63,673 bases of DNA from Prevotella sp. (lineage in GTDB: Bacteria > Bacteroidota > Bacteroidia > Bacteroidales > Bacteroidaceae), in NCBI GenBank assembly GCA_017470345.1, contig JAFUEP010000039.1, positions 1 to 63,673 of the forward strand, written 5' to 3'. The notes beneath the pieces are model-generated. The model did not search any database. It was not told where the DNA came from and saw only the letters and a program-made list of their open reading frames with translations. Below, one piece after another: positions 3,689 to 48,466 of this stretch. The position numbers and the translations under genes were made by a program. Positions within the stretch are counted from its first letter, which is position 1. The number at the start of each line of letters is the position of its first letter.

Positions 3689-4855
3689 ATGAAAAAGCTA
3701 TTTTTTACATTAGCGGCAACAGCCATTTGTGCAATGGCTTCTGCACAAACTGCTTCAATTGCTGACATTGATATCATGCCGGGTCAGACCGCTTCATTTA
3801 CAATTGTTGTAAATGTAGGTGATAATGAGTTCTCTGGTATAGAATTTACGAAGATGCAATTACCAGAAGGCATTACCATGGTTGAAAATGGTGTAATTCC
3901 TAACTCTGATTGGGATAAGACAGCATATTGCGATTTCGGTATTGATACAGATGGTACCATCATAGGTGCATTTAATTCTCAAAAAGATATTGCTATCCCT
4001 CAGAATCAGGATTTTGCTCTTGGCACTATGGAGATCAAAGCTGCTGCTGATCTTGAAATCGGAACTTCTCTTACAATTACGATTCCTGCTGGTAAGTTAA
4101 AGTTCGTACCTGGAAGTATTCCCGTTGAGAATGAAATTTCCTTTAAGGTGAATGTTACCAATACTGTTACCCTTGATGAGAATTCCACCATACTTCCTGT
4201 AGCTACTACTGGTGTGAATGTAGCGGTTAAGCGTACCATCAATGCTAATGAGTGGAGTACGATCTGCCTGCCCTTCGCTATGAATGCTGAGCAGATGGCA
4301 AAAGCATTCGGTGAGGGCGTGCAACTTGCTGAGTTCACTGGTTGGTCCTCAGAGAAAGATAACGACGCTATAGTAGGAATAACTGTCAATTTTGCATTGG
4401 CTACTGAAATGGAGGCCAACTATCCTTACATAATAAAGGTCGGCTCTCCCATTTCTGAATTTACAGTCGAAGGTGTTGATATCGAACCGGAAGAGGAGCC
4501 ATATATTCGAGTTGGCAATAAGTCAGCTGAACGCGGCTGGTTCTATGGAACAAATGCAGTTACTACTGTTCCTGAAGAGAATGTATTCCTAAGCGAAAAC
4601 AAATTCTGGTATTCGACAGGTGCAACAAAGATCAAAGCATTCCGTGGATACTTCAAATTCTATGATGTGCTTGATGCATACTTTGATGCAGAAGCAGGAG
4701 CTCGCATTAAGATGTCCTTTGACGATGAGACTACTGGCATCAGCGGTGTGAACATCAATGTTGATGGTGAGTACTACAACCTGAACGGTCTGCGTGTTGA
4801 GACGCCTGCTAAGGGTATCTTCATCAAGGACGGCAAGAAGGTCGTTGTGAAGTAA
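3689..4855 (+). CDS. Secreted protein with cohesin-like N-terminus and short C-terminal sorting-type tail
   Basis: 388 aa. Signal peptide at 1-19 (MKKLFFTLAATAICAMASA). Residues 20-155 look cohesin-like (PGQTASFTIVVNVG, FSGIEFTKMQLPEGITMV). The middle contains NANEWSTICLPFAM, a motif repeatedly seen in Prevotella secreted proteins of unknown role. The C-terminus (YYNLNGLRVETPAKGIFIKD then GKKVVVK) matches the short tail seen on other predicted exported proteins of this group and is likely a T9SS-type sorting or anchoring signal. It starts 14 bp after the dockerin gene. The coding DNA is AT-rich compared with the core genes. No enzymatic motif is recognised. Confidence 0.7.
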   Translation: MKKLFFTLAATAICAMASAQTASIADIDIMPGQTASFTIVVNVGDNEFSGIEFTKMQLPEGITMVENGVIPNSDWDKTAYCDFGIDTDGTIIGAFNSQKDIAIPQNQDFALGTMEIKAAADLEIGTSLTITIPAGKLKFVPGSIPVENEISFKVNVTNTVTLDENSTILPVATTGVNVAVKRTINANEWSTICLPFAMNAEQMAKAFGEGVQLAEFTGWSSEKDNDAIVGITVNFALATEMEANYPYIIKVGSPISEFTVEGVDIEPEEEPYIRVGNKSAERGWFYGTNAVTTVPEENVFLSENKFWYSTGATKIKAFRGYFKFYDVLDAYFDAEAGARIKMSFDDETTGISGVNINVDGEYYNLNGLRVETPAKGIFIKDGKKVVVK

Positions 4856-4891
4856 TCGTGAGTTCAAATTCTATATTGACTAACTAAAAGA

Positions 4892-5113
4892 ATGAGGAAT
4901 AAGAAAATGAAAAAGAACTATATAGCCCCAAGCTCAATGGTCTCCTTCCTTGAGTTGCAACAGATGATTGCAGCCAGTGATCCCGGTGTCAGAAGTGCCG
5001 GCGACGTGACGGACATCACCTACGGTGGCGTCGATACTGATGGCAAGAAGAATCCTTCATCCCGCCACGGCAACGTCTGGGATGATGAGGAACTCGAGGA
5101 AGAGGAATATTAA
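4892..5113 (+). CDS. Small acidic-tailed peptide of unknown function
   Basis: 73 aa. Not recognised as a named family. The N-terminus (MKKNYIAPSSMVSFLELQQM, counting from the second Met at 4907) resembles short Prevotella/Bacteroides ORFs that begin M-K-K-x-Y-x-x-P. The middle is Gly/Ser/Asp-rich with a GDVTDITYGG segment, and the end is strongly acidic (WDDEELEEEEY). There is no clear cleavable signal peptide. It lies 36 bp after the preceding secreted-protein gene and just before a strong terminator, so it is probably the last gene of that operon. Either ATG (4892 or 4907) could be used. It could be a leader-containing peptide or a secreted small protein; this is unproven. Confidence 0.6.
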   Translation: MRNKKMKKNYIAPSSMVSFLELQQMIAASDPGVRSAGDVTDITYGGVDTDGKKNPSSRHGNVWDDEELEEEEY

Positions 5114-5163
5114 TCACTTGACCGAACGTCAGGTACGACGTGCCTGACACGACACATAGCAAG

Positions 5164-5204
5164 ACAGCAGCTACGACCGCGCGGTGCGTAGCTGCTGTTT
5201 TTTT
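5164..5204 (+). terminator. Strong terminator closing the secreted-protein operon
   Basis: Perfect 12-bp stem ACAGCAGCTACG (5164-5175) with CGTAGCTGCTGT (5187-5198), 11-nt loop, followed by a T run to 5204. Confidence 0.9.
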
Positions 5205-5228
5205 GTGAGCTATCGTGTCGGCTTTTCT

Positions 5229-5899
5229 GCCTGCGGCGCTACATGTAATATCCATGAATGGCCCAAGTAATGATTCAAAAATAATACATGCCCTATTTTT
5301 TAGAAAGAAATTGGCAAGAATTAGGATAAATTATTTCCAACAATTATAAATAAAATATTCTTTCTCATTGTTGAGGGAAATTATTTTTAATTCTTGCTCA
5401 TTTCTTTCAATAATATCTTTTTCTGCCTGCGGCGCTACATTTAATATTCATGAATGGCCATGAATGTTTCATAAATATTATATGAGTCATTCGTGTCTAA
5501 TTCATGTGCATTACATGTAGTGTCGCAGACAATACCTTTTCATTTTTGCCTGCGGCGCTACATATAATATCCATGAATGGACATGAATGGTTCAAAAGAA
5601 TTATATGAGTCATTCGTGTCTGATTCATGTGTATTCATGTAGCGTCGCAGACAAGAGAGAAGAGAATTTCTGCCTGCGGCGCTACATGTAATATCCATGA
5701 ATGGCCATGAATGGTTCAAAAATATTATATGAGTCATTCGTGTCTAATTCATGTGTATTTGTGTAGCGTCGCAGACAATACCTTTTCATTTCTGCCTGCG
5801 GCGCTACATATAATATCCATGAATGGCCATGAATGGTTCATAAATATTATATGAGTCATTCGTGTCAGATTCATGCGCATTACATGTAGTGTCGCAGAC
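5229..5899. repeat. Long palindromic repeat array 1 (one half unit and four full units)
   Basis: Units begin GCCTGCGGCGCTACAT and end TGTAGCGTCGCAGAC (some ATGTAGTGTCGCAGAC), so the ends are inverted copies of each other. Full units: 5425-5530, 5548-5652, 5672-5776 and 5794-5899 (105-106 bp each). A left half only (5229 to about 5293) comes first. Inside each unit CATGAATGGTTCA (left) pairs with TGAGTCATTCGTG (right) if G-U pairs are allowed, so each unit can form one long hairpin with an A/T-rich loop. Spacers are 17-19 bp and nearly identical to each other. No credible coding frame; the array lies between a terminator and the promoter of the next gene. Confidence 0.9.
5303..5408. repeat. 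AT-rich inverted repeat inside the array
   Basis: Arms 5303-5343 and 5368-5408 are imperfect inverted copies (for example GCAAGAATTA near 5315 against TAATTCTTGC near 5388). The spacer is AT-rich and about 24 bp. It sits exactly where the right half of the first long palindromic unit should be, so it may be an insertion. Confidence 0.75.
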
Positions 5900-6276
5900 A
5901 ATAAAAGGCGATAGTGGTTTTGCGGGTCATGTGATGTCCTAGAATTTGGAATATACTTTACATTCGTGTCGCGTCAACCGGAGAAGGACCGCTTCTCGCA
6001 TCAAGAAGCGGTCCTTTTCGAATGGAAAAGCGGCACTTCTCTGGCCTAAAAGCGCCGCTTCTCTACGACGCAAGTCTGCTATAGCTGATAATCAATGACT
6101 TGTGATTTCTTGACATCTGATTTGAATTTAATTGACAAATCATGGAATTGTACAGATGACGTAGGAGGTGTAATTAGAAACAAATTTGCACTAATTAGGG
6201 AAAAAAAAGCTGCGGTGATGATAGGAGTGCCGCGTTGTTAATTTCTTTCCAAAAATACTTCAAGATTTTTTCTTTT
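5900..6276. other. Non-coding gap between the two long-palindrome arrays
   Basis: 377 bp without a supportable gene. It contains a 22-bp palindromic tandem array (5982-6069, listed separately). The remainder is unremarkable AT-rich sequence with no clear promoter. Confidence 0.6.
5982..6069. repeat. 22-bp palindromic tandem array (copy 1)
   Basis: Four 22-bp units at 5982, 6004, 6026 and 6048, each starting A[GA]AAG and containing an inverted CTT[CT]TC about 8 bp later. Unit 1 AAGGACCGCTTCT (5984-5996) is the exact complement of unit 2 AGAAGCGGTCCTT (6004-6016), giving a 13-bp perfect hairpin. A related array is at 48382. Confidence 0.85.
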
Positions 6277-6835
6277 GCCTGCGGCGCAACATGTAATATC
6301 CATGAATGTCCATGTAATGCTTCAAAAATATTATATGTCAGATTACATGTCCAATTCATGTGTATTATATGTAGCGTCGCAGACAAGAGAGAAGAGAATT
6401 ACTGCCTGCGGCGCTACATGTAATGTGCGAGAATGGTCCATGTAATGAATCAAAAATATTATATGTCAGATTACATGTCCAATTCATGTGTATTATATGT
6501 AGCGTCGCAGACAAGAGAAAACAAACTGCCTGCGGCGCTACATGTAATATCCATGAATGTCCATGTAATGTTTCAAAAATATTATATGTCAGATTACATG
6601 TCCAATTCATGCGCATTATATGTAGCGTCGCAGACGAGAGAGAAGAGAATTTTTCCCTGCGGCGCTACATATAATATCCATGAATGTCCATGTAATGAAT
6701 CAAAAATATTATATGTCAGATTACATGTCCAATTCGTGTGTATTATATGTAGCGTCGCAGACAAGAGAAAACAAACTGCCTGCGGCGCTACATGTAATCT
6801 GCGAGAATGATCCATGTAATGAATCAAAAATATTT
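6277..6835. repeat. Long palindromic repeat array 2 (four full units and one half unit)
   Basis: Same end sequences as array 1. Full units: 6277-6384, 6404-6512, 6528-6635 and 6655-6762 (108-109 bp). A left half (6778-6835) runs into the promoter of the next gene. In this subfamily the inner stem is CATGTAAT on the left and ATTACATG on the right, replacing the CATGAATG/CATTCGTG pair of array 1. Spacers alternate between a 19-bp form (about AAGAGAGAAGAGAATTACT) and a 15-bp form (AAGAGAAAACAAACT). Apparent short reading frames here are translations of the repeat and are not credible genes. Confidence 0.9.
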
Positions 6836-6855
6836 TGCTTTTTTCTCCATAACCC

Positions 6856-6886
6856 TTTGCACTTTCGATTTTTAATTGTAACTTTG
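6856..6886 (+). promoter_or_regulatory. Promoter of the large dockerin-like protein gene
   Basis: TTTG (6856-6859), 19-bp spacer, TAACTTTG (6879-6886), a perfect Bacteroidetes match. The leader of about 100 nt contains a small hairpin, CGTGGC (6902-6907) with GCCACG (6916-6921). Confidence 0.85.
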
Positions 6887-6992
6887 CACCTGTATAGACG
6901 ACGTGGCCCGACGGTGCCACGCGCCGCATTGTACCCGATAACTAATATCTTAAAGAATAACGGAACAACAACAATTTAATAACAAAACAATT

Positions 6993-9911
6993 ATGATCAA
7001 ACAATTACGTTATTTTTGCACGCTCCTGCTCATAGCAGTGGCAAGCGTGGCGTGGGGTGACGAGGTGACTGAAACTATTACATTCAGTGAGCTTGGCTAC
7101 GAAAATGCAGCTGATGTTACTGAAGTAGAGGGTACAAATGTTGTCTTGGCATTAGCGAAAGGCACCAACACCCAGAATGCTCCGAAGTATTACACGGCGG
7201 GATCAGGAGTTCGTCTCTATAGTGGTAATGCCATGACGGTGACTTCAACTAAAGATGGATATACTATTTCCAAGGTTGTCTTCAATTTTTCTGCCAATAA
7301 TTATACCATGGGAAACGCAACGGTTACAAGTGGTAGTTATTCAACAAGTGGTGCTGTTGGCACATGGACAGGCAATATCTCGGAATTTACCATCACTTCT
7401 GCGGCAACATGCAGGTTGCAGTCCATGGAGATAACCTTGACAAACGTTCAGTTTAAGGAGAGTGACTTAACAATTACTTCGCCTTCCGTAGTGTCTATTG
7501 CTCCGGAAGAGACAACAACTATTGCCTATAGTTCAAGTTCGACGGGAGATGTCTCTTGGTCAACTAACAATCCCAATGTCGCGACTGTAGAGGACGGAGT
7601 AGTGACAGGCGTGGCCACAGGAACAGCAACTATTACGATCTCGCAGGCAGCCGATTCTCAATATGAAGCAGGCCAGCAAACGGTCATTGTTAAGGTTGTC
7701 GCAGCTGGCGAGGGTGTCTGGAATGCTGGCTATGTCACGGCTGTGACGAGCCCTGATACAGGTTTCAAGCTTGATTTTAATACAGACGATATTACGGCCT
7801 ATTATTTGAAGGCATCATCTTCAAACGATCCCGTTTCAAATTCTTCGGAGATTCGCGTCTATACAGGTGCTCAGCTCACCTTCGCAGTTCCTGACGGCTA
7901 CGAGATGACGGAGATCGTCTTTACCTGCACTTCAGAGAGCTATGCAACTGCGTTAGCAGCGGGGAAGGCTGATACAGGCACTTTGCAGGCCAATGGCTCT
8001 TCTGTCTCATGGGAAGGCGTTGCGTCGTCAGTCATTATTGACAATAGCAGTGCCCAGACGCGTATTAGCAAGATTGTCGTGACCTATGGTCCGGCTTCGG
8101 TTAAGCACCCTTCGGACTTTACGATTACCAGTCCGACGACTGTTGAACTCGTTTTGCCCGATACGCCAACGGCTACAGTCACCTATACGACCAGCTCCAC
8201 GGGTAACATCACCTGGAAGTCGGCCGATGAGACGGTTGCAAAGGTCGAGAACGGTGTTATCACGGCTGTTGCAGCCGGCACGACGACCGTCATCGTCCGT
8301 CAGGATGCTGATGCAGACTATGAGGCTAGCGAGGAAATTGAGATCACGGTGAACGTGACGGGCGAAGCTGCGGCCTTAGAGAATATAGCCGCACTGACGG
8401 CTCTGACTGATGCCGGTGAGTATAAGGTGAAGTTGGCGGATGCCCTCGTGACCTACGTAAATGGAAAGTATGCCTATATTGAGGATGCCAGCGGTGCTGT
8501 GATGCTTTATGGTGAGGCAGCTGTCGGCGACCTCATTGCGGGTGATAAGATTACGGGTGAGGCTACTGTAACTTATGCACCCTATCATAATCTCCCCGAG
8601 GTGACTGCTATGACACTTGCCGAGGGCTATACTAAGACCACAGGCAATAAAGTGACGCCTACTGTTGTGACGTTGGCCCAGATGGATGAGAACTATGAGA
8701 GCTACATCTCGCGCTATGTGACAATCGAGAACGCTACCGTCGTCAGTGCTTTTGCAAACAAGAACTCTACTATCCAGCAGGGTGAGGCGAAGATCGTGCT
8801 GCGCGACCAGAATAGTGCGGCCACGCTCGAGACGACGGTCGACGATATTGTGACGGTGACTGCTCATCCCGCTATCTATAACACCACGAAGCAGATAGCT
8901 GTCTATGAGCAGAGTCAGATTGTCGTGAAGCAGGATGACCGCGCAGATGCAGAGATAGCCTTCTCGTCTGAGACACTGACTATTACGCAGGGCGATACAG
9001 ATTTTACTGCACCTGAATTTATTAATCCCAATGATATCGCAATGGGTGAAATCACTTTTGCCAGCACAAATGCGAACGTCGCAAGCTGGGGTGCGAGCGG
9101 ACTTGTCATCGGTACTGAGGTCGGTACGACTAACATCACGGCTACATTTAATGGCAACGAGGCATACAAGCCTGCCACAGCCACGCTCGTCGTGACCGTC
9201 AATGAAGATCTCAACTTTGCTGAGGTCACCATCGGCAGCGGCATTTATAAAGAGGTTACATCCGCTTCCGAACTGGAGGCAGGCAAACGCTATCTGATCG
9301 TTTATAATGATGCAGTTGCCGAGGATGCTTATATTTATGCTGGTATTAATACTGAAAAGCATATCGGAAAGTACGTAATAGGTCAAATCTCAGATAATAA
9401 GATTGATATAAACAATGTTGAGAATGCAGTTCCTATTGTACTTCAGAAGAGTGATGAGAATTGGTATTTGTTGGATGGAAATAATTTCCTTGCATATACT
9501 AGGCCGGTAAATACAACGAGTAATAATTATTTGTATTATGCGTCAACCAACGTTAATGGTACGGAATGGGCCATTACTACTAGTAGTATTTCAAATGTGT
9601 GGAATTCTGAAAGGAATCTACGCTTTAATACAACGTCAGGCCAAGAACGCTTCTGTGCTTATCTTGCTACAGGCTCCCAGCAGGATGTCGTCCTTTACAA
9701 AGAAATTGCTGATGCCATGGTTATCCCCGGCGACGTGAACAAGGACGGACAGGTGACGGTGGACGACCTGGAGGCGCTGGTGAAGATCCTGCTCGGCACG
9801 AACACGGCAGAGGATGACTACAACATGGAGGCTGCCGACGTGAACGGTGATGAGGAAATCACGGTTGCTGACGTGAGCGCCCTGGTGGGCATCCTGCTCG
9901 GCGGCGAATAA
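6993..9911 (+). CDS. Large secreted protein with Ig-like (BIG2) domains and C-terminal dockerin-like repeats
   Basis: 972 aa. Signal peptide about 1-22. Two BIG2-type Ig-like domains are recognisable, about residues 155-235 (WSTNNPNVATVEDGVVTGVA) and 370-455 (ITWKSADETVAKVENGVITA). About 456-645 resembles the OB-fold-like domain common in Bacteroidetes surface proteins (YAYIEDASGAVMLYG). Another Ig-like segment lies at about 650-745. The end (about 910-972) has two dockerin-like repeats: GDVNKDGQVTVDDLEALVKI and DVNGDEEITVADVSALVGIL. No catalytic motif is seen, so an adhesive or scaffold role is plausible. Residues about 750-905 are encoded by visibly AT-richer DNA than the dockerin end, suggesting a mosaic gene. 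Confidence 0.75.
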   Translation: MIKQLRYFCTLLLIAVASVAWGDEVTETITFSELGYENAADVTEVEGTNVVLALAKGTNTQNAPKYYTAGSGVRLYSGNAMTVTSTKDGYTISKVVFNFSANNYTMGNATVTSGSYSTSGAVGTWTGNISEFTITSAATCRLQSMEITLTNVQFKESDLTITSPSVVSIAPEETTTIAYSSSSTGDVSWSTNNPNVATVEDGVVTGVATGTATITISQAADSQYEAGQQTVIVKVVAAGEGVWNAGYVTAVTSPDTGFKLDFNTDDITAYYLKASSSNDPVSNSSEIRVYTGAQLTFAVPDGYEMTEIVFTCTSESYATALAAGKADTGTLQANGSSVSWEGVASSVIIDNSSAQTRISKIVVTYGPASVKHPSDFTITSPTTVELVLPDTPTATVTYTTSSTGNITWKSADETVAKVENGVITAVAAGTTTVIVRQDADADYEASEEIEITVNVTGEAAALENIAALTALTDAGEYKVKLADALVTYVNGKYAYIEDASGAVMLYGEAAVGDLIAGDKITGEATVTYAPYHNLPEVTAMTLAEGYTKTTGNKVTPTVVTLAQMDENYESYISRYVTIENATVVSAFANKNSTIQQGEAKIVLRDQNSAATLETTVDDIVTVTAHPAIYNTTKQIAVYEQSQIVVKQDDRADAEIAFSSETLTITQGDTDFTAPEFINPNDIAMGEITFASTNANVASWGASGLVIGTEVGTTNITATFNGNEAYKPATATLVVTVNEDLNFAEVTIGSGIYKEVTSASELEAGKRYLIVYNDAVAEDAYIYAGINTEKHIGKYVIGQISDNKIDINNVENAVPIVLQKSDENWYLLDGNNFLAYTRPVNTTSNNYLYYASTNVNGTEWAITTSSISNVWNSERNLRFNTTSGQERFCAYLATGSQQDVVLYKEIADAMVIPGDVNKDGQVTVDDLEALVKILLGTNTAEDDYNMEAADVNGDEEITVADVSALVGILLGGE

Positions 9912-19370: not shown

Positions 19371-19447
19371 GGCACGCCGTGACGCCATGACGTCACGCCG
19401 TGACGGCATGAAATCACGTCGTGACGGCATGCCGTCACGACGTGACG
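19371..19447. repeat. 21-bp palindromic tandem array (copy 1)
   Basis: Exact 21-bp period: CGTGACGCCATGACGTCACG at 19378, then units at 19399 and 19420 and a partial unit at 19441. Each unit is CGTGACGnCATGnnGTCACGn, a palindrome around CATG. Flanks AAACT(T)T and AGTTTT are inverted to each other. A second array in opposite orientation lies at 34264. Confidence 0.9.
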
Positions 19448-31979: not shown

Positions 31980-32120
31980 GAAATTTTTCAAAATTAAAAT
32001 CAAAATTGAACAAATTGACAAGCATAATTGTACTAAATGAATAATTTCGAATTAAATTTTCATCTAGTGCGTTTAGATTTGTCATTTTGTTCAATTTTGA
32101 TTTTAATTTTGAAAAATTTC
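31980..32120. repeat. Near-perfect 42-bp AT-rich inverted repeat
   Basis: Left arm 31980-32021 and right arm 32079-32120 are inverted copies with one mismatch in 42 positions; the loop is 57 bp. It lies in the 353-bp gap between pyrE and comF, which otherwise holds only the pyrE promoter region. AT content is far above the neighbouring genes. It could be a miniature mobile element or a giant hairpin RNA. Confidence 0.88.
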
Positions 32121-34263: not shown

Positions 34264-34355
34264 AAACTTACGTCACGTCGTGACCGCATGCCGTCACGTC
34301 GTGATTTCATGCCGTCACGCCGTGACGCCATGCGGTCACGCCGTGACGCGAGTTT
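34264..34355. repeat. 21-bp palindromic tandem array (copy 2)
   Basis: Units at 34279, 34300 and 34321 (21 bp each) with partial units at both ends; consensus CGTGACnnCATGCnGTCACG. The third-type unit with TTTCATG matches the AAATCACG variant of copy 1 in inverted orientation. Flanks AAACTTA and GAGTTT are inverted. Confidence 0.9.
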
Positions 34356-48278: not shown

Positions 48279-48381
48279 GGAGTGAGAGGCTTCGAGGGCG
48301 TGATTTGTCATAAAAATTCGCAATATTTAATTGTAAGTTTGTAAACGCCTGATTGATAGCTGTTTGCATTTTACTAAAAAG

Positions 48382-48466
48382 AGAAGCGGCACTTTTCGAT
48401 GAGAGAAGTGCCGCTTTTCGGGTCGAGAAGTGCCGCTTTTCGATGAGAAAAGCACCGTTTCTTTTT
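48382..48466. repeat. 22-bp palindromic tandem array (copy 2)
   Basis: Units at 48382, 48404, 48426 and 48448. Unit 1 AGAAGCGGCACTT is complementary to unit 2 AAGTGCCGCTT; units 2 and 3 share AGAAGTGCCGCTTTTCG. Same architecture as the array at 5982. The surrounding 467-bp gap otherwise holds a hairpin relic and a promoter. Confidence 0.85.

Follow-up and report, generated by a model that had tools for sequence, protein, structure and literature searches.

A palindrome array in Prevotella sp. and its possible origin as a gene-less form of elements that carry a GxxExxY nuclease gene

What are the palindromic units that lie in a row at 5228–6834 of a Prevotella sp. contig, and do they act as folded RNA or as DNA? 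The question arose from a first-pass annotation of the window, that is, the whole stretch of DNA analysed here (63,673 nucleotides; GenBank assembly GCA_017470345.1, contig JAFUEP010000039.1), which described an array of palindromes of about 106 bp and took matched changes on both arms as the trace of selection on a folded RNA or a single-stranded DNA hairpin. The array was confirmed, with eight full units and two left halves, as was the pairing described for its two groups: in group 1, all 13 positions of the inner stem pair, three of them as G-U, and in group 2, CATGTAAT stands opposite ATTACATG. We give a probability of roughly 0.55 to the reading that the units are gene-less, non-autonomous DNA elements resembling miniature inverted-repeat transposable elements (MITEs), the full form of which carries in its loop a gene for a GxxExxY nuclease (PF13366, PD-(D/E)XK fold).

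The units are bounded by two conserved ends, E2 (GCCTRCGGCGYWAC) and E1 (GTCTGCGACGCWAC). Across 72 elements collected from 16 genomes, these ends were polar in 61, with E2 on the left and E1 on the right, and six rows carried E2 on both sides, two of which (L356, L373) look spurious. Most units measure 102–119 bp, have the ends GCC...GAC and contain GTAG inside the 3' stem. The arms are built from steps of the motif CRYR(T)AAT, of which three or four were present in most cases (51 and 40 of 116 arms, respectively), and successive steps were spaced by 10 or 11 bases in 208 of 245 instances, which corresponds to one turn of DNA per step. Changes within motif steps were mostly transitions, with column 93 mixed, and left–right mismatches across whole arms comprised 285 transitions and 249 transversions. 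None of 58 elements was located inside an open reading frame (ORF) of at least 150 residues. Short, multicopy, terminated by inverted repeats and devoid of a transposase gene, the units display features of MITEs. The source genome (2.67 Mb, 61.6% complete) carries 19 additional matches, full or partial, on 12 other contigs (weakest E value 0.0016), some grouped (C27, C26, C47) and several close to contig ends; the one on contig C61 belongs to a coding element. Copies were also present in other Prevotella genomes, which the first-pass annotation had proposed to search, and exact E1 occurred in 31 of 398 genus genomes, at least twice in 17 of them. In G058 (L119–L136), several repeat families are densely nested into mosaics in which E1/E2 ends are reused many times, and the loop of one element in G006 (L142, 6300–6900, reverse strand) is split by a further inverted repeat, the ends of which are GAGGGTGTGTCAAAAT. 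The complete genome of Prevotella communis E15-14, which has a GxxExxY locus (L201), contains six exact E1 sites; one of these (L464) has the look of an entire palindrome, and the remaining five are partial or mosaic.

Each full unit is a strong palindrome, as had been noted: RNA folding of the eight gave z scores of -6.4 to -10.1, and none of 200 shuffles was as good in any case. Pairs were counted over 37 of the 72 elements (13 genomes), aligned after near-duplicates and long-loop or nested elements had been excluded by hand, using an in-register stem written by hand from single-unit folds; RNAalifold on the free alignment returned no full-length nested stem. The whole in-register stem paired in 85.2% of cells, a level also obtained with shuffled partners (85.2%; reached by 242 of 500 shuffles), with a covariation score of 0.101 versus 0.099 in shuffles. 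The three motif steps alone showed a small excess of pairing (87.8 versus 86.7%; 7 of 500 shuffles as high) and of two-sided changes (27 cells versus 18.5; 2 of 500 as high), which can be within what relatedness gives. The coordinated replacement of both arms was perfect for the inner step inside the window (four versus four units) but did not extend to the alignment, in which the switch was one-armed in 7 of 37 units (right arm only in six, left only in one), and an outer-step change of the same kind was one-armed in two of the eight window units. Differences on one arm only, which the first-pass annotation had named as speaking against its own interpretation, are nearly what these switches amount to. 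G-U and A-C mismatches were even overall (145 versus 140 in 57 elements), with values of 42 versus 7 in the source genome, 12 versus 4 in G343, 26 versus 49 in G058 and 2 versus 17 in G270. At 38 loci, represented by one gene-less element each, the nearest upstream gene was co-oriented in 16, opposed in 17 and not in reach in five. Selection on an RNA structure was not supported: covariation, strand asymmetry and orientation gave no backing, and only single copies folded strongly. With pairing equal to that of shuffles and no bias of strand or orientation, the arms look, from their aligned sequences, constrained one by one rather than against each other, as would inverted sets of a protein-binding motif. 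Action as DNA, which the first-pass annotation had named as an alternative, is the best reading, and a single-stranded DNA hairpin form may be involved.

A candidate coding parent with a putative role in mobility is provided by elements capped with E1/E2 that hold a GxxExxY gene. In G061 (L144), a 155-residue gene of this family sits in the loop, enclosed by CRYRAAT arms and E1 ends; the same arrangement is found in the source genome on C61, with the downstream arm degraded near the contig edge. Against TIGR04256 (cut-off 35), the gene carried in the loop scored 122.7 and 133.6 bits, and the PD-(D/E)XK residues E, D, E-x-K and Q are invariant in 12 proteins. Relatives of the C61 protein, 57–100% identical and hereafter called L180-like, form a clade of 110 loci, 81 of them distinct and with full flanks. 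Palindromes and the flanks of this clade share ends and arm motif. At least two CRYR(T)AAT steps were present on each flank in 62 of the 81 loci, against none of 32 phylum-wide GxxExxY loci and none of 28 loci of S23 genes (PF05635), and the two flanks totalled 253 and 277 steps versus 12 and 12 in shuffles. A score of at least 35 for the inverted repeat between upstream and downstream flanks, the threshold applied throughout, was reached in 51 of the 81. End motifs of the palindromes were detected at 18 of the 110 clade loci (11 distinct), at none of 89 other GxxExxY loci and at none of 30 S23 loci. Furthermore, an L180-like gene (E ≤ 1e-30) was present in 15 of the 17 genomes with at least two exact E1 copies versus 68 of the other 381, counts that are uncorrected for kinship and include the coding element's own ends.

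GxxExxY genes are generally associated with inverted repeats rich in CRYRRAK. The loci tested were mostly the best matches per search (up to 30 each), plus hand-chosen places in a first set, in which the 51 GxxExxY ORFs included 49 distinct ones, and full flanks were available for 41; an inverted repeat above threshold flanked 31 of these 41, compared with 2 of 62 other genes. Phylum-wide loci scored lower than this first set, with 12 of 32 above threshold and a median of 32 versus 20 in controls. In a hold-out for which the criteria had been set beforehand, and from which one of 28 loci was dropped owing to a short flank, 11 of 27 reached 35, and CRYRRAK was counted 54 times upstream and 51 times downstream versus 6.6 and 4.6 after shuffling. 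When the flanks of different hold-out loci were paired with one another, 11 of 216 swapped pairs still attained 35, owing to motifs common to several loci. The arm motifs vary among GxxExxY loci and include ACGGATT, CACAGAG, CACGAATT and others. The family was matched in 69 of the 118 relatives searched and in 75 of 148 genomes sampled from the phylum.

Thirteen distinct end-capped coding elements were obtained when G297 and G426, which came from the E1 search and have shortened genes or gaps, were counted; kduD follows the element in 12 of the 13, and the source-genome contig ends before kduD. A search with kduI retrieved 30 loci, 21 of which were read. The kduI–kduD gap spanned 10–77 bases in 13 of these, and held an S23 gene in four (G006, G009, G019, G023; coordinates matching PF05635), a short gene-less palindrome in two (G004, G015; by eye) and a GxxExxY gene in one (G000), with one unreadable (G036). 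Among the remaining nine, eight had no kduD directly downstream and one (L395) had a gap of 382 bases. The S23 genes at this site were accompanied by inverted GGAGTT-type repeats in three cases and by A+T-rich flanks in G023, as judged by eye. The empty, GxxExxY, S23 and gene-less states imply that repeat-flanked elements of several kinds are gained or lost at this site. Elsewhere, S23 loci had inverted repeats in 18 of 28 cases, with flanks rich in RAGTT (41 and 37 versus 11 and 13 in shuffles) and not enriched in CRYRRAK (5 and 3 versus 7 and 3.5). CRYRRAK outnumbered RAGTT in 50 of 73 GxxExxY loci (16 ties) versus 1 of 28 S23 loci (12 ties). One contig (G000:C42, 10232–39585) carries three S23 genes and a GxxExxY gene.

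If the window units are indeed gene-less relatives of the coding elements, the GxxExxY nuclease would bind the helically phased half-sites of each arm and act on the palindrome, perhaps extruded as a cruciform or hairpin. Cutting would occur near the conserved ends E1/E2, repair or copying would then spread the elements, and tandem expansion could produce arrays such as that of the window. Several results weigh against this reading. Neither movement nor change in copy number was seen, and target-site duplications showed no convincing excess at k 2–9 among 58 elements (at k = 6, 2 versus 0.35 expected). Among the 110 clade loci, kduI is present at 18, precisely those at which the coding element is end-capped, and a coding form confined to one site looks resident rather than jumping. 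G006 (seven E1) and G058 (35 E1), which are 94% and 99% complete, lack an L180-like GxxExxY gene at E ≤ 1e-30, so that either the gene was lost there or another enzyme serves; these two genomes speak against a simple one-to-one dependence. S23 genes share the architecture without a nuclease, and hence the nuclease cannot make all such repeats. Scores remained below 35 at 10 of 41 loci of the first set, 20 of 32 of the phylum set, 16 of 27 of the hold-out and 30 of 81 L180-like loci. CRYRRAK and RAGTT were chosen after the first loci had been seen, and the hold-out covers CRYRRAK only; the prediction that it would show no RAGTT enrichment failed downstream (22 versus 10.2; upstream 7 versus 9.2), RAGTT in the phylum set was 1.6 to 1.9 times shuffled values (16 versus 9.9 and 18 versus 9.6), and CRYRRAK was 2.6 times shuffled values downstream of control genes (28 versus 10.9; upstream 17 versus 16.9).

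More tentatively, and at somewhat less than even odds, the elements may belong to an as yet undescribed class of Bacteroidota mobile elements: inverted arrays with helical phasing, in which a GxxExxY gene, an S23 gene or no gene is carried and the arm motif follows the gene family. Within such a class, CRYRRAK would go with GxxExxY and RAGTT with S23, and the window palindromes would represent one non-autonomous family, an assignment we likewise advance only as a possibility.

An unlikely alternative is that the palindromes are older and independent, and that GxxExxY and S23 genes inserted into their loops or were captured by them, as happens with some insertion sequences (IS) in repetitive extragenic palindromes (REPs). 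This would account for G006 and G058, rich in palindromes without an L180-like gene, as well as for genes lying in loops and for both gene families being repeat-flanked at the same site; yet the 10–77-base gaps in 13 of 21 kduI loci are too short for such a palindrome, and random capture does not predict that the motif near the gene tracks the gene family as closely as in the CRYRRAK–RAGTT comparison above. We consider it more doubtful still that the stem is needed in a transcript, as an RNase III site, terminator, stabiliser or small RNA in the manner of rRNA intervening sequences. The strong RNA folds, the preponderance of G-U over A-C on the E2-to-E1 strand of the source genome and the co-directional upstream gene of GxxExxY (27 of 28, phylum set) and S23 loci (25 of 27) fit this view, although control genes reach 45 of 53; it conflicts with the whole-stem covariation, which did not exceed shuffles, with a mismatch bias that is absent overall and reversed in G058 and G270, with the 16 versus 17 upstream orientations among 38 loci, and with the position of the window array after a terminator-like site.

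That the array instead offers binding sites to a host nucleoid or regulatory protein, merely used by GxxExxY flanks, appears improbable: the 10–11-bp phasing and the location of all 58 elements outside long ORFs would suit such a protein, but the patchy distribution of exact E1 over the genus is unlike that of a host-wide factor, and the ends are conserved and polar. Least credible, and in our judgement very improbable, are ordinary REPs or REP doublets forming hairpins (REPINs) moved by a REP-associated tyrosine transposase (RAYT; Y1 transposase), or MITEs of a classical IS. The units are palindromic, intergenic and dispersed, 78 of the 118 genomes searched have a Y1_Tnp match, and 13 of 28 Y1_Tnp loci have inverted repeats scoring at least 35; against this, the end motifs lie near only 1 of 30 Y1_Tnp loci, GTAG is inside the stem and not an unpaired foot, and most units exceed 100 bp in the range given above. 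No IS with E1/E2 ends was noticed in the loci read, where no dedicated transposase search was made, and the match to Y1_Tnp in the source genome, itself incomplete, is weak and lies in a 1202-aa frame.

The first-pass annotation knew of no described family with these ends, and none was found in Rfam or in the literature searched. None of the 40 Rfam matches listed for 4800–7100 (E up to 5) reached the gathering score, and nearly all were microRNA precursor models, as expected from a palindrome. No matching description of palindrome or element appeared in the literature searched, a scope outside of which lie most subscription journals and all bioRxiv preprints. The units are like REP/REPIN–RAYT systems (PMC3116915, PMC3733652) in being palindromic, intergenic, dispersed and non-autonomous, with a candidate partner enzyme gene flanked by repeats. 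Unlike in those systems, the partner is a PD-(D/E)XK nuclease and not a tyrosine transposase, and the units are longer, with arms of helically phased, heptad-like steps and no GTAG/CGTC foot; the unpaired GTAG/CGTC tag on a palindrome of 20–40 bp that marks the REP class was not found in the units. By analogy, the array may work like a REPIN–RAYT pair or like a MITE with its parent, yet it lacks the REP tag and target-site duplications. Intervening sequences of 23S rRNA with an S23 ORF (PMC4990558) also have inverted repeats, an ORF in the loop, an open origin and role and, as that paper reports, tandem heptameric repeats upstream of the ORF; S23 elements share their architecture with the present elements and, at kduI–kduD, a site. 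Unlike rRNA intervening sequences, however, the units are intergenic and either gene-less or equipped with a nuclease gene; those of the window lie between protein genes, and not in a 23S rRNA helix, the insertion site that defines that class. The BrickBuilt MITE of Porphyromonas gingivalis (PMC4596501), likewise from Bacteroidota, is a short, intergenic element with an internal repeat and about 20 copies, but it is a 23-bp head-to-tail minisatellite, not an inverted array, and the word nuclease is absent from its text. The loop gene is a clear member of GxxExxY/PDDEXK_3 (TIGR04256, PF13366), and the association with repeats is the new part; the passages on this family found in the literature give no substrate and no tie to repeats. 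In the literature searched, the name GxxExxY appears in two papers, one of which also has the term inverted repeats in another place, and PF13366 or PDDEXK_3 appears in one. Should the nuclease reading be correct, a defined DNA substrate would make the function of a very common and little-studied family testable. The broader class, if real, would give GxxExxY proteins their substrate and rRNA intervening sequences an origin, a matter called unclear in PMC4990558 and on which the use of kduI–kduD by both GxxExxY and S23 elements bears.

The array runs from a left half through four group-1 units, a spacer and four group-2 units to a second left half (Table 1).

Table 1. Components of the palindrome array, in window coordinates.
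Feature	Position	Strand	Remarks
Left half unit (end E2 and left arm), broken by another palindrome	5228..5297	+	
Nested A+T-rich palindrome from a different family, inside the left half unit	5295..5416	.	59-nt arms, 71% complementary
Full unit, group 1 (E2 ... E1)	5424..5531	+	
Full unit, group 1	5547..5653	+	
Full unit, group 1	5671..5777	+	
Full unit, group 1	5793..5900	+	
Non-repeat spacer dividing group 1 from group 2	5901..6275	.	375 bases
Full unit, group 2	6276..6385	+	
Full unit, group 2	6403..6513	+	
Full unit, group 2	6527..6635	+	
Full unit, group 2	6654..6763	+	
Left half unit	6777..6834	+	

Most of the spacer matches, at about 86% identity, a stretch that adjoins units in G343 (window 5816–6239 versus L360, G343:C24), which hints that whole blocks move or get rearranged, and a stretch resembling the nested A+T-rich palindrome sits between units there as well (L360; by eye). 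Six window proteins tested against the G343 loci gave no match, and the other side of the G343:C24 unit group is the contig end. At L360, repeats of group-1 type and the window spacer adjoin a gene that is absent beside the window array. Of the terminator and promoter between which the array had been placed, a terminator-like site was found at 5181–5195, followed by a T run (one such site, with 1.3 in shuffles), but a sigma-70 scan of the neighbourhood revealed no promoter on the + strand; a putative Bacteroidetes-type promoter may lie before 6993. Three neighbouring genes were scanned against Pfam. On each side of the array, one of them encodes a Dockerin-domain protein, that after the array also having Big_2 domains, and the third gene, located just before the array, had no Pfam match. 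These neighbours look unrelated to the array.

Other repeats were observed in the window. A 22-bp tandem repeat, AGAGAAGCGCCGCTTTTCGATG, lies at 48380–48457, with similar pieces in the array spacer at 5984–6063. A 67-nt inverted repeat (31980–32120, 85% complementary) with CAAAATT-like steps, probably another palindrome family, stands beside the piece 'cttgcgtcccttcggtagcaa', which recurs within elements of G058 and P. communis. Palindromic tandem repeats with a 21-bp period (CACGCCGTGACGGCATGACGT-like), amounting to two helical turns per unit, are found at 19373–19447 and 34264–34355.
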